Shown: positions 1,311 through 64,000 of the stretch, in pieces
How positions within the stretch are numbered: position 1 is the stretch's first letter
How the letters are laid out: every line of letters starts with the position of its first letter
Source of the DNA: Alphaproteobacteria bacterium
Lineage (GTDB): Bacteria; Pseudomonadota; Alphaproteobacteria; Rhizobiales; Rhizobiaceae
DNA: 64,000 nucleotides
Assembly (NCBI GenBank): GCA_024742485.1
Contig: JANSYK010000002.1
Coordinates: forward strand, 186,001-250,000
Reading direction: 5' to 3'
Position numbers and translations under genes: made by a program
The notes under the pieces: generated by a model
Told to the model about the DNA's origin: nothing
The model's database searches: none
The model's input: only the letters and a program-made list of their open reading frames with translations

Positions 1311-3215
1311 TCATGACGCCCACTGTCTCTTTTGCATGGGATCGATGCTGTCGACTTCGCTGCGACGCAGGGCAGCAAGGATAATGGCAATCGCAGCCGG
1401 CGTCATGCCTTCCAGTTTTCCGGCATGGGCTATGGTTCGAGGCCGATGCTGGACGAGCTTCTGTTTCAATTCATTGGACAGACCGGGCAACACTGCAAAA
1501 TCAAACGTTTCGGGTATTGTCCGGTTTTCCTCTTTCTTCTGAATGGCGATGTCACGGTCTTGCCGTTCCAGATAGACTGCATAGGAGGCCTCGATCTCAA
1601 CGGGTTCGGTGACGGCCGTATCGATTTCCCCGAGTTGCGGCCAAATCAGCGCCAGTCGCGCAACATCGGTGTCTGCATAGGACAGAAGCTCGTAGGCCGA
1701 GCGGCGGGCGCCATCCTGATTGACCTTCAGTCCGTGGCGTTTCGCTTCAGTGGAGGTAACTGTCAATTCCTTCAAAAGCCGACGCAATGCATCGATACCA
1801 TTTTTCCACGCCAGGAATCGTTCCGCGCGGGTCCGTTTTGCAAGGCCCGTTTCAATGGCCCATGGTGTCAGTCTCAGATCCGCATTATCGGCGCGCAACG
1901 TCAATCTGTACTCCGCCCGTGATGTGAACATTCGGTAGGGTTCCGTAACACCCCGACTGGTCAGATCATCGATCAGAACACCGATATAGGACTCCGTTCG
2001 GCTAAACAGCTTGGCATCCATGCCACCGCAGGCCCGAGCTGCGTTGATACCCGCAACCATTCCCTGCGCTCCGGCTTCCTCATAGCCCGTCGTACCGTTG
2101 ATTTGTCCAGCGAGAAACAAGCCGGACAGTCTTTTCGTTTCAAGGCTGGCATGGAGTTCGCGCGGATCGATATGATCATATTCGATGGCATAACCCGGTT
2201 GAAGGATGGCGGCGGTTTCCAACCCTGGAATGGTCGCCAGGAACTGTTTTTGAACCGATTCCGGCAAGGACGTCGAAATTCCATTGGGATAGACTGTGTG
2301 ATCATTCAGTCCTTCGGGCTCAAGAAAAATCTGATGCTGTTCACGGTCCTTGAAGCGGACGACCTTGTCTTCAATCGATGGACAATAGCGCGGCCCGGTT
2401 CCCTCAATCTGTCCAGAATACATGGCGGAAAGATGAAGATTGTCTTCTATGATCTGATGCGTCTGTGGCGTGGTGTGCGTGACACCACAGTCCACCTGCG
2501 GATTGGTGATTGCATCCGTCAGAAACGAAAACGGCACCGGATTCGCATCAGCGGATTGCCGGCCAACGTTTGACCAATCGATTGTGCGGCTGTCGAGCCG
2601 AGCCGGTGTTCCGGTTTTTAACCGGCCCAGCGCAAATCCGGCATTGCGCAGGGTATCGGCAAGACCAGTCGCCGGCAATTCCCCCATGCGGCCGGCTGCA
2701 ATTGTCCGTGTGCCAATATGGATCAATCCGCGAAGAAACGTGCCCGTGGTCAGGACAACCGCACCACTGCGCAGGCGTTGTCCATCTGCCAGCACGACCC
2801 CCTCAACGCGACCGGGTGCCATGACAAAATCCTCGACTTCGCCCTCAACAACCGCGAGATTTTCAGTTTCTCCGATCGCTTTCTGCATGGCGTGGCGATA
2901 GAGACTTCTGTCTGCCTGGGTACGGGGACCTCGAACAGCCGGACCCTTGCTGCGATTGAGGAGTCGAAACTGAATCCCGGCGGAATCGGCGACACGTCCC
3001 ATCAAACCGTCGAGAGCATCAATTTCGCGAACGAGATGTCCCTTTCCCAGCCCGCCAATGGCCGGATTGCATGACATGACTCCGATGGTTTCGCGCCGGT
3101 GGGTCACCAATGCTGTCCGTGCCCCCAATCGAGCAGCGGCAGCGGCGGCTTCACATCCAGCGTGTCCTCCGCCGACAACAATCACATCAAAACTGTAACT
3201 TTCAGATCCAGACAT
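1311..3215 (-). CDS. mnmG: tRNA U34 carboxymethylaminomethyl-modification enzyme MnmG (GidA)
   Basis: MnmG is the FAD-dependent partner of MnmE; together they install the (carboxymethyl)aminomethyl group on U34 of certain tRNAs. The FAD dinucleotide fold starts at [12 protein letters not shown] (residues 13-24). Family stretches [17 protein letters not shown] and [17 protein letters not shown], and the C-terminal helical region, are all present. I take the ATG at 3215 (634 residues), which gives the usual short N-terminus; an upstream in-frame ATG at 3251 would add 12 residues ([12 protein letters not shown]) not typical of the family. The gene is transcribed with rsmG and parA, and the gap to mnmE contains parS sites. 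Confidence 0.96.
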
Positions 3216-3273
3216 GGTCAATTCCCGTTTGATGCTTTCAGTTCGCCGCAATGGGTTCTTTTGTCAAGCGGGC

Positions 3274-3289
3274 TGTTTCACGTGAAACA
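3274..3289. promoter_or_regulatory. parS centromere site, perfect palindrome, between mnmG and mnmE
   Basis: A second exact copy of the 16-bp palindrome TGTTTCACGTGAAACA lies in the noncoding gap upstream of mnmG. It is about 2.1 kb from the copy inside rsmG. Being intergenic, it is free of coding constraint, so its perfect conservation points to ParB binding. Confidence 0.93.
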
Positions 3290-3345
3290 ATCGGGTTCGC
3301 GAACCTGTGATGCTGGACCTGTCAACATCATATGGGTCCAACGGG

Positions 3346-3361
3346 TGTTTCACGTGAGTCA
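3346..3361. promoter_or_regulatory. Imperfect parS-like site before the mnmE stop codon
   Basis: TGTTTCACGTGAGTCA matches the parS consensus at 14 of 16 bases; the left half and core are intact and the right arm differs at two positions. It lies 72 bp from the perfect copy at 3274, just beyond the 3' end of mnmE. It may be a weak ParB site in the same cluster. Confidence 0.6.
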
Positions 3362-3370
3362 CGACCCTGA

Positions 3371-4684
3371 CTATTTCCCGACACAGAATTCCCTGAAAAT
3401 GACATCCAGCAGATCCTCAACATCCACCTGACCGGTCAGACGACCCAACATATCACCAGAATGTCGCAATTCCTCCGCCCTAAGTTCTAGAGGGAGATGT
3501 CCTCCCGCAACGGCAGTCCCAAGGTGGGAAAGGCACAATTGGAGATATTCCCGATGTCTCTGGCGCGTTGGAAGGGCAATGGATAGCGAGCCGACGGCAC
3601 CCTCCACACGTTGGGAAATATCACCCAGAAGATCGTCAATCCCGGACTGGTTTTTGGTAGATATGAGAAAATCATGTTGCCCGCCGACGCGGTCGGCACC
3701 AAGATCTGATTTTGTGCCGATCCTCACTATTTTTGTTTGATCCAATCCAGAGACATCAACGGGAATCGGTGCGGCCAAATCCTCCAGTACCAGAACAAGA
3801 TCGGCGTGTTTTGCCGCCGCCAAGGCCCTGCGAATACCTTCCTGTTCGACCAATCCATCAGTCTTCCTCAAACCCGCAGTATCAAGGACCGTGACCGGAT
3901 AGCCACCAAGGTCGAGGTGAAGTTCGAGGACGTCACGGGTTGTGCCAACTTCATCGGAAACAATGGCTATGTCTCTTTTCGCCAGCAAATTCAGGAGGCT
4001 CGACTTCCCGGCATTCGGTGCACCGAGAATGACGATTCGGTATCCATCACGGATGATCTCTCCCGCGGTGTGGCCCTCGATGTGATTTCCGATATCGAGT
4101 TCCAGGCCCAGAAGATCGTCCCAAATCGTGTCACCAACCGATCCCGGGACGTCTTCTTCCTCGGCAAAGTCGAATTCCGCTTCGATCAAAGCCCGTGCCC
4201 GCACCAGTCGGGTACGCCACTCATCATACATTCTGGACAAGGAGCCGGCGGACTGTTCGATCGCCAGGCGACGCTGCATCTCCGTATCGGCCGAAATGAG
4301 ATCCGCCAGGCCCTCGACCTCCGTCAAATCCATCCGTCCATTTTCGAACGCACGACGGGTAAACTCGCCCGGTTCCGCACTGCGGTACCCGTCGAGGCTC
4401 GCCAGGCACGTCATCATTGAAGCGACAACGGCTCTGCCACCGTGCACGTGATATTCGACACAGTCCTCTCCGGTAAAGGAGTACGGAGCTGGAAAAAACA
4501 GAACAAGGGCTCTATCGATGACCGTCCGATCTTGATTCCGAAGGGTGCACAGGGTCGCATGCCGCGATTCCGGCACAAACCCGGCAATAGTTTCGAGTCC
4601 GAATCGAACAGCCGGTCCTGAGACGCGAATGATGGCCACCCCTGCTGGCACCGCACCACTCGACAATGCGAAAATGGTCTCCAT
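3371..4684 (-). CDS. mnmE: tRNA modification GTPase MnmE (TrmE)
   Basis: MnmE is the GTPase half of the MnmEG complex that modifies wobble U34. In the 437-residue product the G1 box GAPNAGKS is at 221-228, the G2 threonines at 248-249, G3 DTAG at 268-271 and G4 TKSD at 324-327. The C-terminus ends CVGK, the conserved Cys motif of the family. The N-terminal folate-binding domain starts METIFALSSG. An open frame extends upstream to 4915 but its extra 77 residues are not family-like; ATG 4684 gives normal length. The gene is divergent from the thioredoxin-domain gene at 4729, leaving only 44 bp for both promoters. Confidence 0.96.
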   Translation of the reverse strand: METIFALSSGAVPAGVAIIRVSGPAVRFGLETIAGFVPESRHATLCTLRNQDRTVIDRALVLFFPAPYSFTGEDCVEYHVHGGRAVVASMMTCLASLDGYRSAEPGEFTRRAFENGRMDLTEVEGLADLISADTEMQRRLAIEQSAGSLSRMYDEWRTRLVRARALIEAEFDFAEEEDVPGSVGDTIWDDLLGLELDIGNHIEGHTAGEIIRDGYRIVILGAPNAGKSSLLNLLAKRDIAIVSDEVGTTRDVLELHLDLGGYPVTVLDTAGLRKTDGLVEQEGIRRALAAAKHADLVLVLEDLAAPIPVDVSGLDQTKIVRIGTKSDLGADRVGGQHDFLISTKNQSGIDDLLGDISQRVEGAVGSLSIALPTRQRHREYLQLCLSHLGTAVAGGHLPLELRAEELRHSGDMLGRLTGQVDVEDLLDVIFREFCVGK

Positions 4685-4728
4685 ATGGTAAACAGCACCT
4701 TTCAAACCAATGCCGCCGGCAGGGCCCC

Positions 4729-6759
4729 ATGACAGAACCACGACTATCAAATGTGCTGGGTGCCTCAGCCAGCCCCTATCTCCAGCAGCACAAGGACAAT
4801 CCCGTGCACTGGCAGGTATGGGGTGAAAGTGCCTTAAACGAGGCAGCTCGATCCGGCAAGCCGATTCTCCTGTCCATCGGCTACGCAGCCTGCCACTGGT
4901 GTCATGTGATGGCACATGAGAGTTTTGAGGATCCCGAAACAGCAGCGGTGATGAATGAATTGTTCATCAACATCAAGGTTGATCGGGAAGAAAGAAGTGA
5001 TATCGACCAGATCTATATGGCTGCTCTTCATGCGATGGGAGAGCAGGGCGGTTGGCCCCTGACAATGTTCCTGAACAGCGACGGCGAGCCATTCTGGGGC
5101 GGCACCTATTTTCCAAATGTTTCCCGATACGGCCGACCGGACTTCATTTCGGTGATGAGAAGCATCGCCCATATCTACGCGGCAGAACCAAGCAAGGTGA
5201 CCAAAAACGCCGCCGCGGTGCGATCCCATCTCGATCGGACCCTTGCGGATGTCGGCACACCATCTGGTCCCCCGACCGATATCATATCGCGCCAGGCAAA
5301 GGGCATCCTCTCTATTGTTGATCGAAAAAATGGCGGCATCGGTCAGGCACCCAAATTTCCCAATGCAAGCATGCTGGAAACATTGTGGCGCCACTGGTGC
5401 ATGAGCGGATCGTCCGACGCGCACGGTGCGGCGCTTCAGTGGCTTCGTGCCATGGTCAATGGGGGTATCTATGATCACCTTGGTGGCGGACTGGCACGCT
5501 ATACGGTCGATGCCGGCTGGCTGGTCCCGCACTTTGAGAAGATGCTTTACGACAATGCCCAGCTGATACGCAGTCTCACCTGGGCTCATGGCAAAACCGG
5601 CAATGATTTGTTTCGAGTCCGAATCGATGAGACCATCACGTGGCTGGTCCGCGAAATGCACCTGCCCGAAGGCGGTTTTGCATCGAGCCTGGATGCCGAT
5701 AGTGAAGGCGAGGAAGGTCGGTTTTACGTATGGAGCAAGGCAGAGATCGAGCAGCTGCTGGGCTGCGACGCCGATGATTTTTGCAAGCACTATGATGTCA
5801 GCGAAGCCGGAAACTGGGAAGGAAAGAACATCCTCAACCGGCTGAACCACCCACCGGGAGCGGATGCCGACCATGAGAAACGCCTGGCCGATGGACGCCG
5901 GAGGTTACTGAACGCCCGTGCAATGAGAATACGTCCCGACCGAGACGACAAGGTACTGGCGGACTGGAACGGCCTGATGATCCGTGCATTGGCGGAGGCC
6001 GGACAACATTTCGAACGGCCGGACTGGACCAATCTTGCTGTGAATGCCTTCGATTTCATCGTCGGATCCATGTCCAACAAGGGCCGACTTGCACATGCCT
6101 GGTGCAATGATGTCACCACCTACCCGGCACTTTCCTCCGATTACGGCACCATGATGGGCGCTGCATTGACGCTGTTCCAGGTGAGTGGGGATAGCCGGTA
6201 TCTCGAACGGGCCGAGCAATGGCTTTCCGTCCTCGATCATCACTATGACGACGGCGCAGGCAGCTACTTCTACACGGCCAACGACAGTGCGGATGTGCTG
6301 TTGCGCACCCGTCATGAACATGACGATGCATCACCATCGGCGAACGCCTCGATCCTTGAGAGCTTGGCGCGGCTGGCACTATTGAACGATGATGCGGCAC
6401 TTTCCGGTCAGGCAACCACGATGGCCTCCGCATTGTGGGGTCGCGTCAAGGACATGCCCATGGCGGCCAGTGGCGCGGTCAACGCGATCGCGACCGTTCA
6501 GGTTCCAAAGAAACTTGTGCTGGTGAATCCGGCTAAGGACTTCATTGAAGTGATAAGATCCGCACCGGATCCATCGCGTATCGACTTGATTGTCGGCGAT
6601 CTGGAAACAGCACACGGCATGATTGGCAGCATCCCGCCAGCAACCAACCACGACTCCGGCAAACAAAAAGGGGCCATGGCGTTTTTGTGCCACGGCCCGG
6701 TATGCCTTCCGCCGATAGACGATGCTCAGGAATTGAAATCAGCACTCAACGGCAGATAG
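4729..6759 (+). CDS. Thioredoxin-domain / glycoside-hydrolase-fold protein (YyaL/SSP411 family)
   Basis: The 676-residue protein starts with a thioredoxin-like domain carrying the motif C55-H-W-C58 (GYAACHWCHVMAHES), followed by a long (alpha/alpha)6-barrel-like part with sequences such as GGIYDHLGGGLARY and HFEKMLYDNAQL. This is the layout of the YyaL/spermatogenesis-associated protein 20 family, widespread in bacteria but without a settled reaction; the second part resembles N-acylglucosamine 2-epimerase folds. ATG 4729 with an AGGG ribosome site is chosen over an in-frame ATG at 4666 that would overlap the start of mnmE. There is no signal peptide, so a cytoplasmic location is likely. A role in redox or sugar chemistry would be a guess. 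Confidence 0.88.
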   Translation: MTEPRLSNVLGASASPYLQQHKDNPVHWQVWGESALNEAARSGKPILLSIGYAACHWCHVMAHESFEDPETAAVMNELFINIKVDREERSDIDQIYMAALHAMGEQGGWPLTMFLNSDGEPFWGGTYFPNVSRYGRPDFISVMRSIAHIYAAEPSKVTKNAAAVRSHLDRTLADVGTPSGPPTDIISRQAKGILSIVDRKNGGIGQAPKFPNASMLETLWRHWCMSGSSDAHGAALQWLRAMVNGGIYDHLGGGLARYTVDAGWLVPHFEKMLYDNAQLIRSLTWAHGKTGNDLFRVRIDETITWLVREMHLPEGGFASSLDADSEGEEGRFYVWSKAEIEQLLGCDADDFCKHYDVSEAGNWEGKNILNRLNHPPGADADHEKRLADGRRRLLNARAMRIRPDRDDKVLADWNGLMIRALAEAGQHFERPDWTNLAVNAFDFIVGSMSNKGRLAHAWCNDVTTYPALSSDYGTMMGAALTLFQVSGDSRYLERAEQWLSVLDHHYDDGAGSYFYTANDSADVLLRTRHEHDDASPSANASILESLARLALLNDDAALSGQATTMASALWGRVKDMPMAASGAVNAIATVQVPKKLVLVNPAKDFIEVIRSAPDPSRIDLIVGDLETAHGMIGSIPPATNHDSGKQKGAMAFLCHGPVCLPPIDDAQELKSALNGR

Positions 6760-6801
6760 AGCAAGTCAGGTTCTGTCGATTCCAGCACAACCTGTGTTGC
6801 C

Positions 6802-8067
6802 TCAGGTATTCATCGAATCGAAAAACTCGGCATTGTTTTTGGTCTGCTTGAGCTTGTCGATCAGGAATTCGATCGCGTCGGTAGTCCCCATTGGCGCCAG
6901 AATGCGCCGCAGCACGAAGATTTTCTGCAGGTCCTGACGCGGTATCAGCAGGTCTTCCTTGCGGGTACCGGATTTGAGGATATCCATCGACGGGTAGATG
7001 CGCTTGTCCGCGACCTTGCGGTCAAGCACGATTTCCGAGTTGCCGGTGCCCTTGAACTCTTCGAAAATGACCTCGTCCATGCGGCTGCCCGTGTCGATCA
7101 GCGCGGTTGCGATGATTGTCAGGGAACCACCTTCCTCGATATTGCGCGCCGCACCGAAGAACCGCTTCGGCCGCTGCAGGGCATTGGCGTCGACACCACC
7201 AGTCAGAACCTTGCCAGATGACGGCACCACCGTGTTGTACGCACGCCCTAGGCGGGTGATGGAATCAAGAAGAATCACGACGTCACGTCCATGTTCCACG
7301 AGGCGCTTGGCCTTCTCGATGACCATCTCAGCCACCTGGACGTGCCGGGATGCCGGTTCGTCGAAGGTTGACGAAACCACTTCACCATTCACCGATCGCT
7401 GCATGTCGGTCACTTCTTCCGGCCGTTCGTCGATCAGCAGGACGATGAGATAACACTCGGGATGATTGGCCGTGACCGAATGCGCAATATTCTGCAGCAG
7501 CACCGTCTTACCGGTTCTGGGCGGCGCAACGATGAGACCACGTTGGCCCTTTCCGAGCGGTGCAACCAGATCGATCACCCGGGCCGACAGATCCTTCGAG
7601 GTCGGATCATCGAATTCCATGTTGAACCGTTCATCGGGATAAAGCGGCGTCAGATTGTCGAAATGGGTCTTGTGGCGGATCTTTTCGGGATCATCAAAAT
7701 TGATCGTGTTGACCTTGAGCAGGGCGAAATAGCGCTCACCATCCTTCGGCCCGCGAATCGGACCTTCAACCGTATCGCCGGTCTTCAGTGAAAACCGCCG
7801 GATTTGAGATGGTGAAATATAAATATCATCCGGCCCGGGCAGGTAGTTCGCATTGGCGGACCGCAGAAAGCCGAAGCCGTCCTGCAATATTTCGACCACG
7901 CCTTCACCGATAATTTCGATATCCTGCGCCGCGAGTTTTTTCAGGATGGCAAACATCAGCTCCTGCTTTCGCATGGTGCTGGCGCCTTCGACTTCCAGAT
8001 TGTCGGCGAACTCGAGAAGTTCGGTCGGCGTTTTGTTCTTGAGCTCTTGAAGCTTCATTTCCTGCAT
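6802..8067 (-). CDS. rho: Transcription termination factor Rho
   Basis: Rho is the hexameric RNA-dependent ATPase that terminates untranslated transcripts. The 421-residue protein has the N-terminal helical domain ([12 protein letters not shown]), the cold-shock-like RNA-binding fold ([16 protein letters not shown], about 55-70), Walker A APPRTGKT at 181-188, Walker [17 protein letters not shown] and the R-loop segment near the C-terminus. Length and sequence are typical of rhizobial Rho. A second ATG three codons in (8058) is possible. It has its own 176-bp leader containing a parS-like site and lies downstream of hemJ in the same direction. Confidence 0.97.
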
Positions 8068-8918: not shown

Positions 8919-9968
8919 TTAGTAACCCTGGCTGGAGCGAACCCGCTCGACAAGCCGCGTCACATGCTGCGGATCGGCCTGCGGCGTGATGCCGTGTCCC
9001 AGATTGAAGATCAGTGGGCCACTGCCGAGTGTTTCGATAATCGCATCGATTCCTTCGTCCAGGGCGGCACCGCCGGCCACAACACGCATCGGATCGAGAT
9101 TGCCCTGGACCGGACCATTCTCCTGCAGCGATTTGGCAAAGGTCAACGGCACTGTCCAGTCAAGACCAATCGCCGTTGCACCCGTTTCCCGCCGGTAATT
9201 GGTCAATTGCGTGCCCGCACCTTTCGCAAAGGCGATGATTCGTGCCTCGGGATGTCTCGATCGGACCGTGTTGATGATCTTTCGGGTCGGACCCACACAG
9301 AACCGTTGAAATTCGGATGGCCCCAACACACCGGCCCATGAATCGAAGATCTGAACGGCATCGGCACCCGCTTCGATCTGTGCACTCAGATACTCGGCGG
9401 ACAAATCGGCCAGCAGGTCGAGCAAGGCATCAAACGCAGCCGGTTCCCGATAGGCGAACAGCCGTGCCGGAGCCTGATCCGGAGTACCGTGGCCGGCAAT
9501 CATGTAGGTGGCAACCGTCCACGGCGCGCCACAAAATCCCAGCAATGTCGTTTCGTCCGGCAGTGATGTGCGCAATCTCTCAACGGTTTCCAGCACCGGT
9601 GACAGATGGTTCAGCAGATTGCTGCCATCCAGACTGGCAATTCCGGCAACATCAATCGGTTTCATCAGTGGCCCGCGACCCTCCTCGAACCGCACATCGC
9701 GATCAAGTGCATCGGGAATGACCAGAATATCGGAAAACAGGATGGCGGCGTCAAAACCATACCGACGAATGGGCTGAAGGGTAACCTCGACTGCCAGTTC
9801 GGGCGTGTAGCACAGGTCCAGAAAACCACCGGCCTTTTTTCGGGTTTCCCGATATTCCGGCAGATATCTGCCTGCCTGTCGCATCAGCCAGACCGGAGGA
9901 GGAAAGACAGTTTCTCCGTCCAGCACTTTCAGCACCTTGCGCTTCTGGACCACGGTTGTTTCCTTCAT
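8919..9968 (-). CDS. hemE: Uroporphyrinogen decarboxylase
   Basis: HemE decarboxylates the four acetate side chains of uroporphyrinogen III to give coproporphyrinogen III. The 349-residue protein has the N-terminal signature [18 protein letters not shown] (24-41) that lines the active site, the segment [13 protein letters not shown] with the catalytic aspartate, and [13 protein letters not shown]. Length is normal. The ATG at 9968 lies next to the predicted replication origin; hemE flanks the origin in Caulobacter and many relatives. Confidence 0.97.
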
Positions 9969-10176
9969 CCATTAAAAAAGAAAAGAGAGTTTAAGAGTCT
10001 TTTGATTCTTAGAGTCGGTGGGTTCCAGGGATTAAACTTTTTCCAACGGTTCTTCATCTTCTTTCTGTTGCGACATCACCGCACAGGCCTCCCGGATTGA
10101 GATCGTGGATATCAGGGATAACGGTAATTTCCAATGCAGAAACAGAAAGTTGATGCGGCACAGCAAGCGACAGATT

Positions 10177-14813: not shown

Positions 14814-15314
14814 TCAGCGGTCCTTTTTCTTGTTCCAGGGCGAATCGGAATCGGGATCCCGCTGAAAATCATCCTCGTCGAGATCGATGGTTGGTGAAGA
14901 CTGCGGCTCGTTGTTCGCTCGATGGGTGGCGCCGCGGCCGACACCGCCGGCCGTGACGATTGAAATCCGGTTTTTCAGGAGTGCCCATCCGGCATCCCGA
15001 ACAGCCGGAATGAACAGCAGGAACCCGATTGTGTCGGTGATGAAACCAGGTGTCAGCAGCAGCACACCGGCAATCAGGATCATAACCCCGTGAACCAGCT
15101 CCCGTCCGGGAACGCGGCCGGCCTCGGTCTCGGTCCGAATCCGTGCCAGCAATCCGAATCCCTGGACCCGCAGCAATATCGAACCGACCACGGCGGTTAC
15201 GAACACCATGGCCAATGTCCAAAGAACACCGATTTCGCGGCCGATAATGACAAAGGCTCCAATTTCCGCCAGCGGCACGATCAGCAGGAGAAACGGTATG
15301 ATGGAAAAAGGCAT
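14814..15314 (-). CDS. fxsA: FxsA family membrane protein
   Basis: FxsA is a small inner-membrane protein; in Escherichia coli excess FxsA relieves phage T7 exclusion by the F plasmid, but its normal role is unknown. The 166-residue protein has hydrophobic segments at about 4-22, 27-46 and 73-100, with LLLIVPLAEIGAFVIIG and LLLTPGFITDTIGFLLFIP as recognisable family stretches, and a charged C-terminal tail. ATG 15314 has AAGGAACC upstream; an in-frame TTG two codons earlier is less likely. It is divergent from the Tim44-like gene, and this fxsA-timA pairing is common in Rhizobiales. Confidence 0.9.
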   Translation of the reverse strand: MPFSIIPFLLLIVPLAEIGAFVIIGREIGVLWTLAMVFVTAVVGSILLRVQGFGLLARIRTETEAGRVPGRELVHGVMILIAGVLLLTPGFITDTIGFLLFIPAVRDAGWALLKNRISIVTAGGVGRGATHRANNEPQSSPTIDLDEDDFQRDPDSDSPWNKKKDR

Positions 15315-15561
15315 GCTCAACGGTTCCTTGGCGGAGTTTGAGTTTCGGGTGCCGCCCGTCTGGCTGCGTGATCAATACACCGGATATAGGGTTTCGGCCA
15401 TATCTTGGGAGTCCGGGTGGCCGCCGCCGTGACAATATGGTGATTCGCCGTCCCGCTTTAAGGTTACCTGCAATCTGGATTTGAATGATGGCCGGCAACG
15501 GACTATATGAGTAGGCGAGAGGCATCGACCTCGTTTTTGATTTCTTACCGGTATCGGGCGC

Positions 15562-57548: not shown

Positions 57549-58463
57549 TCAGATAACATCCAAACGATAGAATCGCGTCGCATTTGCGAAAAGGACCGCG
57601 TGCCCGATCTCGGCATTTCGTTCCCCGAGTATCTCGGTGAGGACGTCGATTTGCCGCGCGGCGCCGGTATTCACTTTCTCGACTGGGAGGTTCGAGCCAT
57701 ACATCAGCCGATCCGGGCCAAAAACCTCCAAAGCTTGATCGATCAATGGCTGAAGCCGCTCCAATGACCAATCCAGATCGATTGTCCAGAGACCGGAGAG
57801 CTTCATATGCACTGATCGACAATCGGCCAGTGCCGCAATGCCCGCATGCCACAGGTCCGCGTTTCCGGGAACCGAAGGCTCGATTTGTGCGAGGTGATTG
57901 ATGGCAATGGACAGGTCAGGGATGGATTCGGCAAGTTGAGCGACCTCCGGAAGCTGTTCCGGCACCACGACAAGGTCGAGGCTGAGTCCCATGGTGGCCA
58001 GGGTGGCCGCGCTTTTGCGAAACGCCGGCTCGCTCAGGATGCCGGGTCTTGTTGCCATGCGCCAGCGGCCGCCACGGTCCCAGGCGATCAGGGCGCGGAC
58101 ACCGCGCAGGCGTTTGAATTGCATATGTCGTTTGATCTGTTTGCCAGCGTCCATTCGGGTCAGATCAACCTCAGCGACAATCGCAGATGGACAACCGTCT
58201 GTGTCAGCGAGGTCCTGTAGCCAGGCGGTTTCAGCGATTGGATCCACGGCGCCGCAATTGGCCTGCACATGCACGCTGCCGACAAGGTTCAGATCTTCAA
58301 AGTCAGCCCGGTAGTCGACGGGAAGATAGTCCCGCTTGATGGCGCTGTGATCTCCAAAGCGGCGCGGCGGTGCATCAGGCGCAAGCCAGCGATAGGGGAA
58401 ACGGGAGAGATCCCAAAGGTGATGGTGCGAATCGACAATGGGGAAAGCCGGACCGTTGTTCAT
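57549..58463 (-). CDS. Amidohydrolase-2 family lactonase (sugar 1,4/1,5-lactonase type)
   Basis: The 304-residue TIM-barrel protein begins with the metal motif FPIVDSHHHLWDL, and has HVQANCG, HMKLSGLW and the late GPDRLMYGSNLP with the catalytic Asp. Members with this N-terminus and size include L-fucono- and L-rhamnono-lactonases, which open sugar lactones made by NAD(P)-dependent sugar dehydrogenases. It is the last gene of the leftward operon and overlaps the sulfatase by four bases. The substrate is inferred from neighbours, not proven; 2-pyrone-4,6-dicarboxylate hydrolase-type activity is another possibility. Confidence 0.8.
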   Translation of the reverse strand: MNNGPAFPIVDSHHHLWDLSRFPYRWLAPDAPPRRFGDHSAIKRDYLPVDYRADFEDLNLVGSVHVQANCGAVDPIAETAWLQDLADTDGCPSAIVAEVDLTRMDAGKQIKRHMQFKRLRGVRALIAWDRGGRWRMATRPGILSEPAFRKSAATLATMGLSLDLVVVPEQLPEVAQLAESIPDLSIAINHLAQIEPSVPGNADLWHAGIAALADCRSVHMKLSGLWTIDLDWSLERLQPLIDQALEVFGPDRLMYGSNLPVEKVNTGAARQIDVLTEILGERNAEIGHAVLFANATRFYRLDVI

Positions 58464-59887
58464 TCGAAGGTTCCGTGCCCTTCGACGGTCGCGATCAGAG
58501 CGCGTTCTCTCTGATGCATTCTGACCCGGGCATCAATGGCGTCCGGGTCCCAGTCTGCCAGAACCTTGGGCTTCAACTCCGCGATGATGCGTTTCGTTTC
58601 GGTCGCGGTCGCGAGGTTTACCTTCTCGTCGCGATCGGCTTCCAGATCATAAAGTTCATCTGGTTCACCGTGATAGTATACGTATTTCCATCGACCCCGC
58701 CGGATCATCCGGATCGGGCGGGCGGCGGCGTGGCCGCAATATTCAGAGATCACCGTGCGGTCCGGTTCTTCGTGCCCGAACAGCACGTTCGAGATGTCCT
58801 TGCCGTCGGCCTGTTCGAAGAACACATCGGCGGTCCGTGGTGGCTCGGCGAGACCAGCGAGTGTAACGCCGAGGTCCATGAGAGACACCGGCGTTTGTGT
58901 TCTGTTGCCTTTCTCGATCCGGTCCGGCCAGCGCAGGATCAGCGGCACACGAACGGAGTCCTCGAAAAAACAACACTTCCACCAGAGCCCGTGCTCACCC
59001 GCCATGTCGCCATGATCCGAGACATATCCGAACAGCGGCGGGGAATCGGACAAGCCTTCGGCAGTATCGACAGCGTCCATGAGCTGCCCGAGCATCCCGT
59101 CAAGCCACGTCACGAGTGCATAGAACGCCGCGCGCCCGCGTCGGGTTTGCTCGGGATCGATGCCGTTCAGGTCGAAATACCCTCTCAGCCGTTTGTGAAA
59201 CGGGTGTTGGGCGTCCAGTTCGGCCTGGGTAATGTGCGGCATGTCGACATTGTCAGGCCAATAGCGATCGAAATGCTCCGGCGCACGCAGGGGGAAATGG
59301 GGCGCGTTGAACGAAACGCAAAGAAACACCGGTGGGCGATCACCTCTGGGAGGCAGTTCCGCGATGAATTTCAGGGCCGCAGCCAACACCTCTTCGTCTT
59401 GTTCGATGTGCGGCGTTCGGCCTTTTCCCGCATTCAACAGCCGCTCGCGCGCCTTAGCGCGGGGTGCATCAGGAATGTCCCAATCATTGGTGTCGATCCA
59501 GGTCCCGCAGACGCGGCTGTCGTCGACAAGGCGGGTTGAGAAACCATGCATCTGATCAGCGCCGATGAAATGCATCTTGCCGATCAGTACGGTGTCGTAG
59601 CCTGCAGCGCGCATCACGTGGCTGAGCGTGGGCACATCGCTTCTCAGCGGCGCGCCATTGTCCCAGGTTTCGGTCCGGGTTGGATAGCGACCGGTCAGAA
59701 ATGCCATCCGCGACGGCACACAGATTGGTGAAGCGCAATAGGCCGCATCGAAGGTCAGGCCGTTGGCGGCCAATCGCTCCATATTGGGGGTGTGGACAAT
59801 CGGGTGCCCGTAGGCGCCCGAGAATCGGGGCGAATGCTCATCCGACATGACCAGAATGATATCCGGTCTCTCCCGAGGATCGGTCAT
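58460..59887 (-). CDS. Type I sulfatase (formylglycine-dependent, cytoplasmic-looking)
   Basis: The 475-residue protein has the sulfatase signature C-V-P-S-R at 56-60 followed by MAFLTGRYP; Cys56 must be converted to formylglycine by a maturase not present in this window. The metal-site start reads PDIILVMSDEHSPRFSG (D16) and later LFGYVSDHGDMAGEHGLWWK. No signal peptide precedes the catalytic domain, unlike most polysaccharide sulfatases. It starts at ATG 59887, touching the SDR stop, and overlaps the lactonase gene, so desulfation is probably a step of the same pathway. The substrate could be a sulfated monosaccharide or another small sulfate ester. Confidence 0.88.
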   Translation of the reverse strand: MTDPRERPDIILVMSDEHSPRFSGAYGHPIVHTPNMERLAANGLTFDAAYCASPICVPSRMAFLTGRYPTRTETWDNGAPLRSDVPTLSHVMRAAGYDTVLIGKMHFIGADQMHGFSTRLVDDSRVCGTWIDTNDWDIPDAPRAKARERLLNAGKGRTPHIEQDEEVLAAALKFIAELPPRGDRPPVFLCVSFNAPHFPLRAPEHFDRYWPDNVDMPHITQAELDAQHPFHKRLRGYFDLNGIDPEQTRRGRAAFYALVTWLDGMLGQLMDAVDTAEGLSDSPPLFGYVSDHGDMAGEHGLWWKCCFFEDSVRVPLILRWPDRIEKGNRTQTPVSLMDLGVTLAGLAEPPRTADVFFEQADGKDISNVLFGHEEPDRTVISEYCGHAAARPIRMIRRGRWKYVYYHGEPDELYDLEADRDEKVNLATATETKRIIAELKPKVLADWDPDAIDARVRMHQRERALIATVEGHGTFE

Positions 59888-60627
59888 CAGTAGGTTGCTC
59901 TCCCGCCGGAAAGGTCGAAGACAGCGCCGGTCGTGAAGCTGTTTTCCCGGCTGGCCAGCCAACAGATCATGGCCGCCGCCTCGGACAATTCCAGAAAGCG
60001 TCCGCGCGGAATCTTCGACAGCATGAAGTCGATATGGTCCTGGCTCATCTGGTCGAAGATGCGGGTGCGTGCGGCGGCCGGCGTTACACAGTTGACGGCA
60101 ATGTCCCTGTCGGCAAGCTCCTTGCCAAGGGATTTTGTCAGGCCGATGACGGCGGCTTTTGAGCTTGAATAGGCGCTTGCATTGGGATTGCCCTCCTTCC
60201 CGGCAACCGACGCAATATTGACGATCCGCCCGTACGATTGTTCGACCATCGTCGGAACGACGGCCCGGTTGACGTGGAATGTGCCGAGCAGGTTGATTTC
60301 CGTAATGCGACGAAACTCGTCGACCGGATAGTCTGAAAGTGGTGCGTTCGATCCGGCGATTCCGGCGGAATTGACGCAGATATCGGCTCGGCCGGCGAGG
60401 TCAAGCGTCCGCGCCATCGCTGCGGATACAGCGTCCCAGTCGGATACGTCGACCGCGCAGGCAATGGTGTCGCCGCCGATTTCTAGGGCGGCTTGTTCTG
60501 CAAGGTGTTTGTCGAGATCCCAGATCACGATCCGCGCCCCATCTTTGGCCATTCTGTCCGCAACCGCGCGGCCAATGCCTTGCGCGCCACCGGTCACGAT
60601 TGCCACCTGATCGGAAAATGTCGTCAT
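59887..60627 (-). CDS. Short-chain dehydrogenase/reductase, probable sugar dehydrogenase
   Basis: The 246-residue classical SDR has the cofactor motif TGGAQGIGRAVA, NSAGIAGS, catalytic Ser in IVNIASVAGKEG and the YSSSK motif (AYSSSKAAVIGLT). Asp at the end of the second strand (VIWDLDKH) suggests NAD rather than NADP. Related enzymes oxidise sugars such as L-fucose to lactones, which would feed the downstream lactonase. The ATG overlaps the end of the Gfo/Idh gene. Confidence 0.88.
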   Translation of the reverse strand: MTTFSDQVAIVTGGAQGIGRAVADRMAKDGARIVIWDLDKHLAEQAALEIGGDTIACAVDVSDWDAVSAAMARTLDLAGRADICVNSAGIAGSNAPLSDYPVDEFRRITEINLLGTFHVNRAVVPTMVEQSYGRIVNIASVAGKEGNPNASAYSSSKAAVIGLTKSLGKELADRDIAVNCVTPAAARTRIFDQMSQDHIDFMLSKIPRGRFLELSEAAAMICWLASRENSFTTGAVFDLSGGRATY

Positions 60628-61685
60628 GATCCGTTTGCCTTCCAGTGGTTGCCGCGTATCTGCTGTTCATTGCCGTGTGTCCGCGCCGAGGCCATGAGCG
60701 CGTGCAGTGTCTCGACCGCGCGTGCGCCGACATGGCCGGGGCTGTTGTTGGCACCCCCTCCAAGTGCAATCTCGACCAGTCTGGTCGCTGGACCTTCACA
60801 GCTATATGTCCATGCGCCAGACGGAACACTGGCCGTCTCGCTTTGCCCATCCGGCAGTTTTAGGGTCAGCCTTTCGGTTTCAATGTCCAGAAGGACCGAT
60901 CCCTTGGTTCCATAAAGTCGGATATCCACTTCGAACCCGTGCCCTGTTGGAATGGCGCAACTTCCGGAAAGCACGCCAGTCGCCCCATTCTTGAATTGAA
61001 CGATCGCAGCGTCATGCAAGTCGATGCCGGACGTTGCGTCACTGGTCATTGCGCGAACTGTCGAAGCACGAAGGTCCGTCAGCCAATAAAGCAGCCCAAG
61101 CGCATGGCTCAATTGTCCGTGCGCGTATCCGCCGCCGCTTTCCGGTGCCTCCCACGTGGTCCTGTCGGGCTGGATGGCGACGTGTCTGAACTGTCCCAGC
61201 GACCCGCCGGTGAAAATCGCCCGCGTGAAGGAGGCCATGTGACAGACGACATGCTCGACCTGACCGATCTGCGCGACCATCTCGCGCATGGCCTCCAGGC
61301 CGGGCTTGTAATTCCATCCATAGGCCACGAGCAGCTCTCGACCGGCTCGGTCGGCGGTTGCCACCAGATCCCAGGCTTCATCCGGGTTCAGTGTCATGGG
61401 TTTCTCGACCAGGACATGACATCCCTTTTCCAGAAACGCGCGGGCCTGTTCGTAGTGCAGATCGTGGGGTGACGAAATCACGGCAATATCGATATCCCGC
61501 GCCAATACATCGCGCCAGTTCTCGGTCGCAAATGCAAAACCGAATTCGTCTGCGATCAATTTCAGCTCTTTGGCGCCGAGGCGACAGACGCTGTCCAGCG
61601 TCACCGCATTGTGGGCCGCCAGAACGGGAATATGCATGCGGTAGGCAAAATGACCGGCGCCGATGACGGCGGCTTTGAGTGTCAT
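60624..61685 (-). CDS. Gfo/Idh/MocA family oxidoreductase
   Basis: The 353-residue protein has the N-terminal Rossmann fold AAVIGAGHFAYRMHIPVL, the family motif HVLVEKPMTLN with the catalytic Lys, and a C-terminal alpha/beta dimer domain containing GGGYAHGQLSHALGL with a conserved His. Enzymes of this family oxidise or epimerise sugars and cyclitols using NAD(P). It is coupled to lacI and to the SDR by four-base overlaps. The precise reaction cannot be read from the sequence. Confidence 0.88.
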   Translation of the reverse strand: MTLKAAVIGAGHFAYRMHIPVLAAHNAVTLDSVCRLGAKELKLIADEFGFAFATENWRDVLARDIDIAVISSPHDLHYEQARAFLEKGCHVLVEKPMTLNPDEAWDLVATADRAGRELLVAYGWNYKPGLEAMREMVAQIGQVEHVVCHMASFTRAIFTGGSLGQFRHVAIQPDRTTWEAPESGGGYAHGQLSHALGLLYWLTDLRASTVRAMTSDATSGIDLHDAAIVQFKNGATGVLSGSCAIPTGHGFEVDIRLYGTKGSVLLDIETERLTLKLPDGQSETASVPSGAWTYSCEGPATRLVEIALGGGANNSPGHVGARAVETLHALMASARTHGNEQQIRGNHWKANGS

Positions 61686-62698
61686 GCGCTCTTCCTGATT
61701 TTCAATTCGTAGCCGATATCGGCAGCACGTTCATCGATCGGTTCATCCTGTAGGCGTTGCATCACCATCCGGGCGGCACACTCACCGATCTCGGTTGCCC
61801 GGATCTTGATTGTTGTCATCGGGACCGGCAACAAAGCTGACGCGCTCAAATCACCGAATCCGGCAATAGCAACATCTGCCGGAATCCGGATACCTTCCGA
61901 CAGGCAAGCGAACATCGCCCCTTGTGCCGGAAGCTCTGCCTGGAAAAACACCGCGTCGGGCGGCCTGCGTCGGCGCATCAGCGACATCATCAATTCTCCG
62001 CCGCTCTGGATTGTCGTCGGGTTTGGGACAGCCAGAACGTTTTCTTCTGGCGTCGGCAGACCTGCCTCCTTCATAGCGTGCAGGAAGCCCGCATGGCGGT
62101 CGCTGGCCTGATCATTGTTCTCGAACGCACCACCAACCATCGCGATTTCGCGATATCCCCTGCCGATCAGATAACGGGTCATGTCGACAGCGGCGTCGAA
62201 ATTGCTGTAGCCGATCGAGAGGTCGATTGCCTCGTCGCGAAGGTTCCAGGTCTCGATGACTGGACCACTGAATTTCCGCAGCAACGCCCGGCAAGCGTCC
62301 GCGTGCGTGAAGCCCGTCACGATGATCGCATCCGCCTGTCGGGCGATGAACGTCCTGACGGCTTCGTGTTCATGCTCGACGGATCGACCGCTGACGCCAA
62401 GCAGCATTTGCAGATCGTTGGCACGAAGCACACTCGCAATGCCCTCCGAGAAATCGGCAAACAGTGAACTGGTCAGAACCGGGACAACAACGCCGACCAT
62501 GTCCGATCTCTGTGACGTCAACGACCGGGCGGCGAGGTTTGGAACATATCCCAATTCGTCAATTGTACGATGGATGAGGGCCCGTGTATCGGGATGCACC
62601 GTCTCCGGTCGCCGAAGCGCGCGGGACACGGTGATGAGAGATACGCCAGACGCTTTCGAGACATCTTTGAGTGTGACCCTTGTCCTGGCTGGCGGCAT
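61682..62698 (-). CDS. LacI-family transcriptional regulator of the sulfatase locus
   Basis: The 338-residue protein has the LacI HTH at about 8-30 (VTLKDVSKASGVSLITVSRAL) and hinge helix VPNLAARSLTSQR, then a periplasmic-binding-protein-like sensor domain (DMVGVVVPVLTSSLFADFSEGI). It is the first gene of the leftward operon and divergent from the ABC-transporter binding protein. Two LacI-type operators lie in the gap, so it most likely represses both units until its sugar ligand binds. Confidence 0.93.
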   Translation of the reverse strand: MPPARTRVTLKDVSKASGVSLITVSRALRRPETVHPDTRALIHRTIDELGYVPNLAARSLTSQRSDMVGVVVPVLTSSLFADFSEGIASVLRANDLQMLLGVSGRSVEHEHEAVRTFIARQADAIIVTGFTHADACRALLRKFSGPVIETWNLRDEAIDLSIGYSNFDAAVDMTRYLIGRGYREIAMVGGAFENNDQASDRHAGFLHAMKEAGLPTPEENVLAVPNPTTIQSGGELMMSLMRRRRPPDAVFFQAELPAQGAMFACLSEGIRIPADVAIAGFGDLSASALLPVPMTTIKIRATEIGECAARMVMQRLQDEPIDERAADIGYELKIRKSA

Positions 62699-62775
62699 AT
62701 TTCGTTCCTTGATCGGTCTTTGTGGTGTGTCTCTGAAGGCGGACGTTCTTCAGGTTCTGGCATTTCTTGTTTGCT

Positions 62776-62795
62776 ATTGACATACGAGTATCATT
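62776..62795. promoter_or_regulatory. LacI-type operator O1, overlapping a promoter -35
   Basis: ATTGACATACGAGTATCATT has a central CG and pairs at 6 of 10 arm positions. It matches O2 (62819-62838) at 17 of the inner 19 positions. It covers the TTGACA -35 box of the rightward promoter. Confidence 0.7.
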
Positions 62796-62804
62796 CCAGA
62801 TAAC
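62777..62804 (+). promoter_or_regulatory. Promoter of the ABC transporter binding-protein gene
   Basis: TTGACA (62777-62782), a 16-base spacer and GATAAC (62799-62804) make a plausible sigma-70 promoter directed to the right. It lies about 80 bp before the binding-protein ATG and is overlapped by operator O1. Confidence 0.55.
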
Positions 62805-62818
62805 GTCCGGCAAGTGCA

Positions 62819-62838
62819 AATGACATACGAGTGTCATT
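62819..62838. promoter_or_regulatory. LacI-type operator O2
   Basis: AATGACATACGAGTGTCATT has seven perfectly paired bases at each end (AATGACA / TGTCATT), a central CG, and 8 of 10 arm positions pair overall. Its centre is 43 bp from that of O1, about four helical turns, so two dimers could bind the same face or form a loop. Confidence 0.8.
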
Positions 62839-62884
62839 GCGATTTCGGCAATCAGCCGATTCACACCGCAGGGAGGATTGAGAG

Positions 62885-64000
62885 ATGCCTAACGTGTTCA
62901 ATAGACGAGAGTTCCTGTCCGCAACGACGGCCCTGGGAGCAGCCGCAATGATTCCGGCAGGCCCGGCGCAGGCTGCGTCAGGGGAGCTGTCGGTTTGGAA
63001 ATTTGGTGGTACGACGGCCGAGGTCGAGACGTGGGCTGCCCGCAACGACGGCTTTACGGCCGCAAATCCGGATGTTGGCTTGAATTACTCCTATTTCAAC
63101 GGCCAAATCCGCCGCCAGAAGCTGCTCGCAGGTTTTCAAACCAACCGTTTGGCTGATGTCGTGATCGCCTTTGGGCAGGATATTCCGGAGTTTGCGGGTT
63201 TTGGCATGATTCAACCGCTGGATGACATCGCCGGTGACCGAATGGCGGGCTGGAAAGAGCGCCTTGTGCCGGAAGTCATGGCCTCGGGCATGCATGACGG
63301 TAAGCTCTATGGCCTGCCGACCTATGTGGACATGGCCAGCTTCCTTGCGATCAACACGGATGCGATGGCTGAAGCCGGCTTCGACAGGCCGCCGGAGACC
63401 TGGTCGGAAGTCCGCGAATATGCCAAGGCCATGACCAAGCCCGATCGACCGGGCATCGCGTTCCCGGCGACGACGGCACCTGTCGACATCAACATCTTCG
63501 AGGGTATTGCCTATGCCAATGGCGGTAGGGTTTTCGACGAATCGACCGGCAAGGTGACACTCAACGGTCCCGGCATGACTGATGCCTTGCAGCTTTATGT
63601 CGACCTCATCGCAGATGGATCGACGCCGCCGCCCACTTCGCTGACCGAGACCTTCTTCCGCGACACCGCGCAGCTCTTTGCGCAGGGCCGCAGCGCGATG
63701 TGGATCGGGCTTTCCTGGCTCAATACACCATGGGGCACGCCGGAAGGCTTGAACTGGACAGGGGTTCCTTTCCCGCGGCCCGACACGGTCACCGGCAAAT
63801 TTCCTCCGGTGAGTGCGATCATGGACCCGACGGCGATCCTCATGGTGTCGTCGCGTGCCAAGAATCCGGAAGCGGCAGTGGAATATATCGACTTCTGGTC
63901 GCAGAACGACCAGTTGAAAATCTGGGGCGGCAATCCGGAGATCGCGCGCATTCCCGCCGGAAAGGTGGCCTGGGGCGAGGCTGGCCTGGCAGAGGCTTGG
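62885..64000 (+). CDS. Tat-exported sugar ABC transporter substrate-binding protein (C-terminus cut by window edge)
   Basis: The frame runs 372 codons from ATG 62885 (GGGAGG upstream) to the end of the window without a stop. The N-terminus NRREFLSATTALGAAAMIPA to PAQAAS is a twin-arginine signal (R7-R8, RRxFL), so the protein would be exported folded. The mature part is a family-1 solute-binding protein: LSVWKFGG, GKLYGLPTYVDMASFLAINTDA and FAQGRSAMWIGLSW. Usual length is about 410-430 residues, so most is visible. Permease and ATPase genes should follow to the right. Confidence 0.92.
   Translation, partial: MPNVFNRREFLSATTALGAAAMIPAGPAQAASGELSVWKFGGTTAEVETWAARNDGFTAANPDVGLNYSYFNGQIRRQKLLAGFQTNRLADVVIAFGQDIPEFAGFGMIQPLDDIAGDRMAGWKERLVPEVMASGMHDGKLYGLPTYVDMASFLAINTDAMAEAGFDRPPETWSEVREYAKAMTKPDRPGIAFPATTAPVDINIFEGIAYANGGRVFDESTGKVTLNGPGMTDALQLYVDLIADGSTPPPTSLTETFFRDTAQLFAQGRSAMWIGLSWLNTPWGTPEGLNWTGVPFPRPDTVTGKFPPVSAIMDPTAILMVSSRAKNPEAAVEYIDFWSQNDQLKIWGGNPEIARIPAGKVAWGEAGLAEAW

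Follow-up and report, generated by a model that had tools for sequence, protein, structure and literature searches.

Which compound is served by the compact set of sugar-type genes at the right-hand end of a 64,000-nucleotide stretch of DNA from a bacterium of the Rhizobiaceae? This stretch, here called the window, covers positions 186001-250000 of contig C102 in a 6.87-Mb genome (G000). An initial annotation of it had proposed that a sulfated sugar, by its guess L-fucose or a related deoxy-sugar, is imported, desulfated and oxidised. Our analysis favours, with a confidence somewhat on the favourable side of even, a reading in which two LacI-controlled, divergent operons import a sulfated 6-deoxy-L-sugar, most likely L-rhamnose sulfate, as the monosaccharide or as a short rhamnoside. 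The parts of this reading differ in strength. That some sulfated sugar is imported and then desulfated in the cytoplasm seems to us quite probable, and that the sugar is L-rhamnose itself falls just short of an even chance. The sequence of import, cytoplasmic desulfation and non-phosphorylative oxidation, of which the first two steps had been part of the initial proposal, is supported by comparison only and not by experiment, the reactions, regulation and sugar being read from gene content, gene order, operator-like sites, family membership, conservation, and natural gain and loss.

The route that we propose would run as follows. A binding protein, two permeases and a UgpC-type ATPase would import the sulfated sugar, from which a formylglycine sulfatase would strip the sulfate in the cytoplasm. 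A RhaM-family mutarotase would supply the right anomer, a Gfo/Idh oxidoreductase would oxidise C1 to give the lactone, and an amidohydrolase would open it. Through dehydration by one or both of two enolase-superfamily enzymes, the aldonate would become a 2-keto-3-deoxy acid. Two fates are proposed for this acid: either a short-chain dehydrogenase/reductase (SDR) would oxidise it at C4 and a hydrolase with its gene elsewhere would cleave the product, or a DHDPS-family enzyme would take it. We prefer this reading because a candidate for nearly every step lies in one locus, and because orthologous loci occur in three species of another genus, with an FGE-family gene in all four carrier genomes.

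How are these genes arranged? As had been noted initially, five minus-strand genes are chained end to end, with junction overlaps of 4, 4, 1 and 4 bases: a LacI-family regulator (61682-62698; PF00356, PF13377); a Gfo/Idh/MocA oxidoreductase, predicted to be an aldose 1-dehydrogenase (60624-61685; PF01408, 87 bits); the SDR, a predicted 2-keto-3-deoxy-aldonate 4-dehydrogenase (59887-60627); the predicted cytoplasmic, formylglycine-type sulfatase (58460-59887); and an Amidohydro_2 amidohydrolase, a predicted aldonolactonase (57549-58463; PF04909, 112.6 bits), which is found in all five full loci. Divergent from them, again in agreement with the initial annotation, the predicted solute-binding protein of an ABC sugar importer (PF01547, 113.7 bits) begins at 62885 on the plus strand and runs 201 bases past the window; its start is of the twin-arginine, Tat type (MPNVFNRREFLSATTALG, judged by eye and without a signal-peptide program). 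All six genes score well above the cut-off with their best Pfam family. In the right flank (L009, where window coordinates are obtained by adding 62799) the binding-protein gene occupies positions 86-1402 and is followed, all on the plus strand, by two permeases (1432-2319 and 2295-3173), a RhamD-like enolase-superfamily enzyme (3170-4330), hereafter the first dehydratase, the UgpC-type ATPase (4337-5401), a second enolase-superfamily enzyme (5398-6561), hereafter the second dehydratase, the mutarotase (6558-6890) and the DHDPS-family enzyme (6887-7774). It was here, to the right of 64000, that the initial annotation had suggested looking for permeases and catabolic genes. Other genomes keep the order of the locus, with proteins 51-91% identical, so the arrangement is not due to chance.

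Is the sulfatase one that could act on a sugar? A PF00884 score of 144 bits together with a C-x-P-S-R motif (CVPSR, at C56) place it among type I, or formylglycine, sulfatases; no signal peptide was seen by eye, the Pfam domain beginning already at residue 8. The best match to the FGE maturase family (PF03781) scores 239-256 bits in each of the four carrier genomes. The nearest solved chains are choline sulfatases, the best being BetC (SmCS, PDB 6fny), to which the protein can be aligned over most of its length, including the CxPxR region. This likeness speaks for a locus that serves choline-O-sulfate, a reading that we find hardly credible and that we reject on three grounds. First, the sulfatase scores 372 bits against TIGR03417, the choline sulfatase family, with a cut-off of 433. 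Second, it lacks the BetC C-terminal tail: the alignment stops at query residue 466 and residue 472 of the 6fny chain, only 9 query residues remain, and the protein ends before the equivalent of the SmCS segment Leu499-Arg507, whose residues Leu499, Asp500, Leu502 and Arg507 shape the pocket entrance in a tail reported as indispensable, most of all for choline sulfate (PMC5870055, the part available). Third, a true betC (884 bits) lies beside betA (871 bits) elsewhere in the genome (contig C120, L083:7051-10360). In addition, unlike the context expected of BetC, the neighbours of the window sulfatase are sugar-type genes. Elsewhere in the genome, on contig C154 (L082:8162-11141), there is also a tandem pair of sulfatases, 35-37% identical to that of the window.

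The distribution of the sulfatase is patchy. Close homologues, for which we set E ≤ 1e-100 in the kin set and E ≤ 1e-110 in the samples of the order and the class, with at most four candidates per genome scored in the latter two, were found in 1 of 61 kin-set genomes (its own, and none of seven congeners), in 4 of 397 genomes of the order (its own and three species of one other genus, g74), and, again as its own, in 1 of 385 genomes of the class. The three further carriers are Rhizobiales bacterium IMCC20636 (G075, locus L010), a metagenome-assembled genome (G150, L011) and G115 (L056); proteins of these loci are 58-91% identical to those of the window. A contig scan returned a sulfatase more than 55% identical in 3 of 40 loci, namely L010, L011 and L012, the last from a Chelativorans metagenome-assembled genome. 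Such a spread suggests horizontal transfer. A fifth full locus, at 51-85% protein identity, lies on a plasmid of Jannaschia sp. M317.

Conservation extends to putative control sites. Between the divergent genes of the window lie two palindromes with a central CG, TTGACATACGAGTATCAT (62777-62794) and ATGACATACGAGTGTCAT (62820-62837), both given on the plus strand; they are the window's only sites with four or fewer mismatches to ATGATACTCGTATGTCAT. The operator-like pair, with its spacing of 43 bp, recurs in all five full loci, with three or fewer mismatches in the four others, where the LacI orthologues are 61-73% identical. One further three-mismatch site lies about 13 kb off in L010; the Chelativorans locus has one site, and a Microvirga locus (L060) has none. 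These sites point to LacI as the regulator of both divergent operons, to which it would bind between them.

Does the importer carry a sulfated ligand at all? The Jannaschia locus has no sulfatase between SDR and amidohydrolase, and no match at E ≤ 1e-30 occurs on its 52-kb plasmid (the chromosome was not searched), and yet its binding protein and permeases are 78-84% identical to those of the window. The importer may thus bind a non-sulfated ligand. In keeping with this, the main ligand could be a sugar without sulfate, or else a different L-sugar (for instance a pentose like L-arabinose or L-lyxose), with the sulfatase as an optional add-on that widens the range, and the named relatives of the SDR, which are pentonate enzymes, would suit another L-sugar. 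We regard this as quite improbable, given that the window sulfatase gene overlaps both its neighbours (by 1 and 4 bases), lies inside the locus in four genomes, and accompanies the same importer in two further lineages.

Those two lineages bear directly on the reading that we favour, import of a sulfated 6-deoxy-L-sugar. On a plasmid of Microvirga ossetica, the sulfatase (57% identical), binding protein (66%), permeases (68-70%) and LacI (51%) are found in a 29-kb stretch whose incomplete gene table lists no Gfo/Idh, SDR or lactonase. The sulfatase lies there near FGE and a GH78 alpha-L-rhamnosidase, the annotated start of which has no signal peptide. Alpha- and beta-galactosidases and a second sulfatase-importer set share this stretch, which leaves room for targets other than rhamnose. 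In the Chelativorans locus, the same sulfatase and importer are found near FGE, a second sulfatase, and different enolase-superfamily and DHDPS genes, and the stretch read contains no Gfo/Idh, SDR or lactonase of the window type. Sulfatase and importer therefore recur jointly, apart from the rest of the core. A separate cluster of sulfatase, FGE, importer, RhaM, Gfo/Idh, SDR and fumarylacetoacetate-hydrolase-family (FAH) genes occurs on a plasmid of Chelativorans sp. AA-79 (L062:3474-15944), with transposition genes on one side; its sulfatase is only 31% identical to that of the window.

Which enzyme would make the lactone? The initial annotation had a dehydrogenase form the lactone and the amidohydrolase open it; oxidation via a lactone stands by comparison, and the SDR does not point to lactone formation. 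In a sequence search the best PDB sequences for the SDR were 9jve (60% identical, 145/243), 9kq1 and 6d9y, titled respectively 2-keto-3-deoxypentonate 4-dehydrogenase, L-2-keto-3-deoxypentonate 4-dehydrogenase, and, for 6d9y, an unnamed SDR; these titles were read via Foldseek with a poor SDR model, the Foldseek scores being left unused. Predicted models built from two-row alignments were uninterpretable, with a mean pLDDT of 47.6 for the SDR and 41.5 for the second dehydratase. We infer that 9jve or 9kq1 is the H. huttiense enzyme for L-2-keto-3-deoxypentonate (L-KDP). According to the available part of the report on that enzyme, it accepts both L-KDP and L-2-keto-3-deoxyrhamnonate (L-KDR), the former being its physiological substrate there in the authors' view and the latter activity having been seen in vitro, and a separate enzyme handles D-KDP and L-2-keto-3-deoxyfuconate (L-KDF), both enzymes being strictly stereoselective (PMC6336799).

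Natural losses are consistent with this assignment. The SDR is present in G000 and G075, and is cut to a remnant of about 100 bp in L011 (~9880-10000) and L056 (~15240-15340); as the neighbours are kept, its loss is tolerated in these two lineages while Gfo/Idh stays, and their genomes hold SDR paralogues, 58-61% identical, elsewhere. On the titles of its nearest solved relatives and its loss in two of the three g74 species, with Gfo/Idh kept, we set aside the SDR as the lactone-forming enzyme; it probably acts after the dehydratase, as a 4-dehydrogenase. Gfo/Idh is the likelier 1-dehydrogenase; in Shinella, a gene 42% identical to it directly adjoins one of the RhaM family. In G075 an SDR of the same type adjoins a RhaM gene (L103) and could fit a 1-dehydrogenase, so that this exclusion falls short of proof.

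Which deoxy-sugar, then, would enter the pathway? We read it as a rhamnose-type sugar because of the RhaM-family mutarotase (PF05336, 66 bits, cut-off 23.4), the RhamD-like first dehydratase (241 bits on NF011968, against 58 for the second dehydratase), and an SDR of probable L-KDP/L-KDR type whose closest paralogue in the genome, 73% identical, is linked to RhamD; and because of the rhamnosidase near the Microvirga sulfatase and the annotated rhaS and rhaM genes that adjoin the Jannaschia locus. A weaker sign comes from Poribacteria, in which a 36-40% identical sulfatase occurs in 26 loci, 19 of which have a RhamD-like match within the stretch read, several of these stretches being short and the background rate unmeasured; in 14 of the 26 the match follows the sulfatase at 2.5-2.8 kb (L013, L017-L019, L021, L022, L027, L028, L030-L033, L038 and L039). 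The Jannaschia locus further contains an FAH-family gene that scores 392 bits, with a cut-off of 500, as a 2,4-didehydro-3-deoxy-L-rhamnonate hydrolase. This marker is weak, because with the same model (NF053535) a score of 435 bits is reached by the hydrolase of another cluster, L086 in G075, which by resemblance we take to be possibly fucose-type.

Fucose had been guessed initially from the types of lactonase and SDR, and neither bears the guess out: the amidohydrolase reaches 102 bits against a cut-off of 400 for L-fucono-1,5-lactonase (NF052480), which makes it only a distant relation of that enzyme by sequence, and two of the three best solved relatives of the SDR, one titled L-, are the 2-keto-3-deoxypentonate enzymes. 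Import of the sulfate of L-fucose or a related sugar into a fucose-type non-phosphorylative pathway is thus unlikely in our view. Membership of the amidohydrolase in the L-fuconolactonase family does speak for it, as does the failure of NF053535 to separate rhamnose from fucose. A mutarotase for L-fucose, which we presume to be a RhaM-family member, is likewise on its side. Its existence is reported in the part available of the account of the L-fucose pathway (PMC11199699). Against fucose stand, besides the named SDR relatives, the strict division in H. huttiense between L-KDP/L-KDR and D-KDP/L-KDF enzymes, the absence of the L-KDF dehydrogenase (L-KDFDH) structure 8XWK from the best 60 of 652 chains for the window SDR, the first dehydratase scoring best to RhamD, and the Microvirga stretch, with its rhamnosidase and no fucosidase in the incomplete gene table. 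Rhamnose-type markers therefore outweigh fucose markers, though several serve both pathways, and a rhamnose-type sugar is likelier than fucose without the matter being settled.

Several observations weigh against L-rhamnose sulfate, in addition to the sulfatase-less Jannaschia locus, the Microvirga galactosidases and the score of the L086 hydrolase. First, the genome has another rhamnose-type non-phosphorylative locus on contig C44 (L101:2993-6161 and L085:8127-14595), with a RhamD over its cut-off (447 against 393), a lactonase-family amidohydrolase (96, cut-off 400), a RhaS-like binding protein (277, cut-off 342), an aldo/keto reductase, a RhaM-family gene and the SDR paralogue; with this locus present, plain rhamnose would not call for another set. 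Alpha-L-rhamnosidase (PF17389) was found in none of the four carrier genomes. Second, no RhamD of the locus itself passes the cut-off of 393, and the mutarotase stays below the rhamnose equivalog (TIGR02625, 47 against 99.6 bits). Third, the first dehydratase has GNFAF in all five orthologues where the three comparison proteins have GEH, so that Asn replaces the Glu that we take to be the third metal ligand, and the presence of two dehydratases, the second nearest to 1rvk and 4hcd, is left unexplained. Fourth, the DHDPS-family protein has QD-x-P, with Gln for the aldolase Tyr and Tyr-Asn replaced, and K-x-E, as in L-2-keto-3-deoxyarabonate dehydratase, for which reason we do not accept it as a plain aldolase; a profile search places such dehydratases second and third among 101 sequences, a single-sequence search only 12th, behind DapA-type chains. 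Fifth, no FAH-family diketo-acid hydrolase gene is among those of the locus; a 67% identical copy lies elsewhere (L068).

Two further readings take up these difficulties. The locus might encode an undescribed pathway for a sulfated 6-deoxy-L-hexose other than plain L-rhamnose, its core enzymes having diverged towards another stereoisomer or sulfated intermediates; divergence of Gfo/Idh, the Asn-ligand dehydratase, the second dehydratase and the dehydratase-like DHDPS-family enzyme would account for the genome keeping the locus beside another rhamnose-type one. We find this rather doubtful, if deserving of serious consideration. Alternatively, the sulfate might be retained through the early oxidations by Gfo/Idh, the lactonase and the altered dehydratase, with the sulfatase acting late. 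This, too, would account for the genome having a diverged pathway in addition to the RhamD-type locus on C44, and agrees with the metal-ligand change in all five orthologues. It is nevertheless improbable, since Jannaschia has the same core without a sulfatase on its plasmid, and the Microvirga and Chelativorans stretches have the sulfatase and importer without a Gfo/Idh, SDR or lactonase of this type.

How does the favoured route, desulfation followed by rhamnose-type oxidation, compare with known systems? Each enzyme is of a known family, and the combination amounts to a non-phosphorylative deoxy-sugar pathway to which a sulfatase and its importer have been added. In the known bacterial non-phosphorylative L-rhamnose pathway, the 1-dehydrogenase is an SDR. 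The locus instead has a predicted Gfo/Idh 1-dehydrogenase, a second enolase-superfamily enzyme and an embedded sulfatase, and differs in the Gln of its DHDPS-family enzyme and the Glu-to-Asn change of its dehydratase. Import first and desulfation inside are found in the Bifidobacterium ats cluster for N-acetylglucosamine-6-sulfate, which has another maturase type and sugar pathway. As far as the available parts of the sources go, the locus shares with the L-rhamnose pathway of Azotobacter and Sphingomonas its lactonase-, RhamD- and mutarotase-family genes, an SDR of probable L-KDP/L-KDR type and, in the Jannaschia version, a rhamnonate-type diketo hydrolase (PMC3870299), and with the L-fucose pathway (FucM/A/B/C, L-KDFDH) the same logic and an L-fuconolactonase-family amidohydrolase (PMC11199699), from which it departs in its SDR, closest to 2-keto-3-deoxypentonate 4-dehydrogenases, and its RhamD-like dehydratase. 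Verrucomicrobiota also target sulfated fucose and rhamnose, there with microcompartments, a lactaldehyde route and polysaccharide-cleaving loci, here with an ABC importer and a non-phosphorylative route (PMC8857213, the part available). In the accessible portion of the rhamnose regulon survey, 'sulfat' occurs once, in a gel recipe (PMC3870299), and among the matches listed in open-licence literature (titles and starts of abstracts) we found no description of this gene combination.

The transport operon ends with a binding-protein-like gene without an evident signal peptide (L009:7790-8941, window-equivalent 70589-71740, plus strand), and a cytoplasmic binding protein at an operon's end is odd. 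A 31% identical gene (L102:239-1417) opens a sugar-acid cluster in the same genome (L102:239-13438, contig C102, 1826238-1839437) with an ABC importer, two enolase-superfamily enzymes, a RhaM-family gene, an RraA-like gene (by eye), an SDR and an amidohydrolase; no match to the window sulfatase occurs in that stretch. Further right of the operon follow an open reading frame taken for a PHB depolymerase and then gyrB, both named by eye.

What would the locus mean for the biology of these bacteria? According to the part available of one account, much carbon is stored in the sulfated deoxy-sugars of algal polysaccharides (PMC8857213). If true, a route that begins with import and relies on a cytosolic sulfatase would show how bacteria can take in sulfated sugars that others release. 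The locus offers a set of defined genes, two operator-like sites and, in this genome and the Jannaschia plasmid, a natural pair with and without the sulfatase. If true, the route would also tell which class of substrate belongs to a branch of BetC-like sulfatases, enzymes that might be labelled choline sulfatases in automatic annotation.

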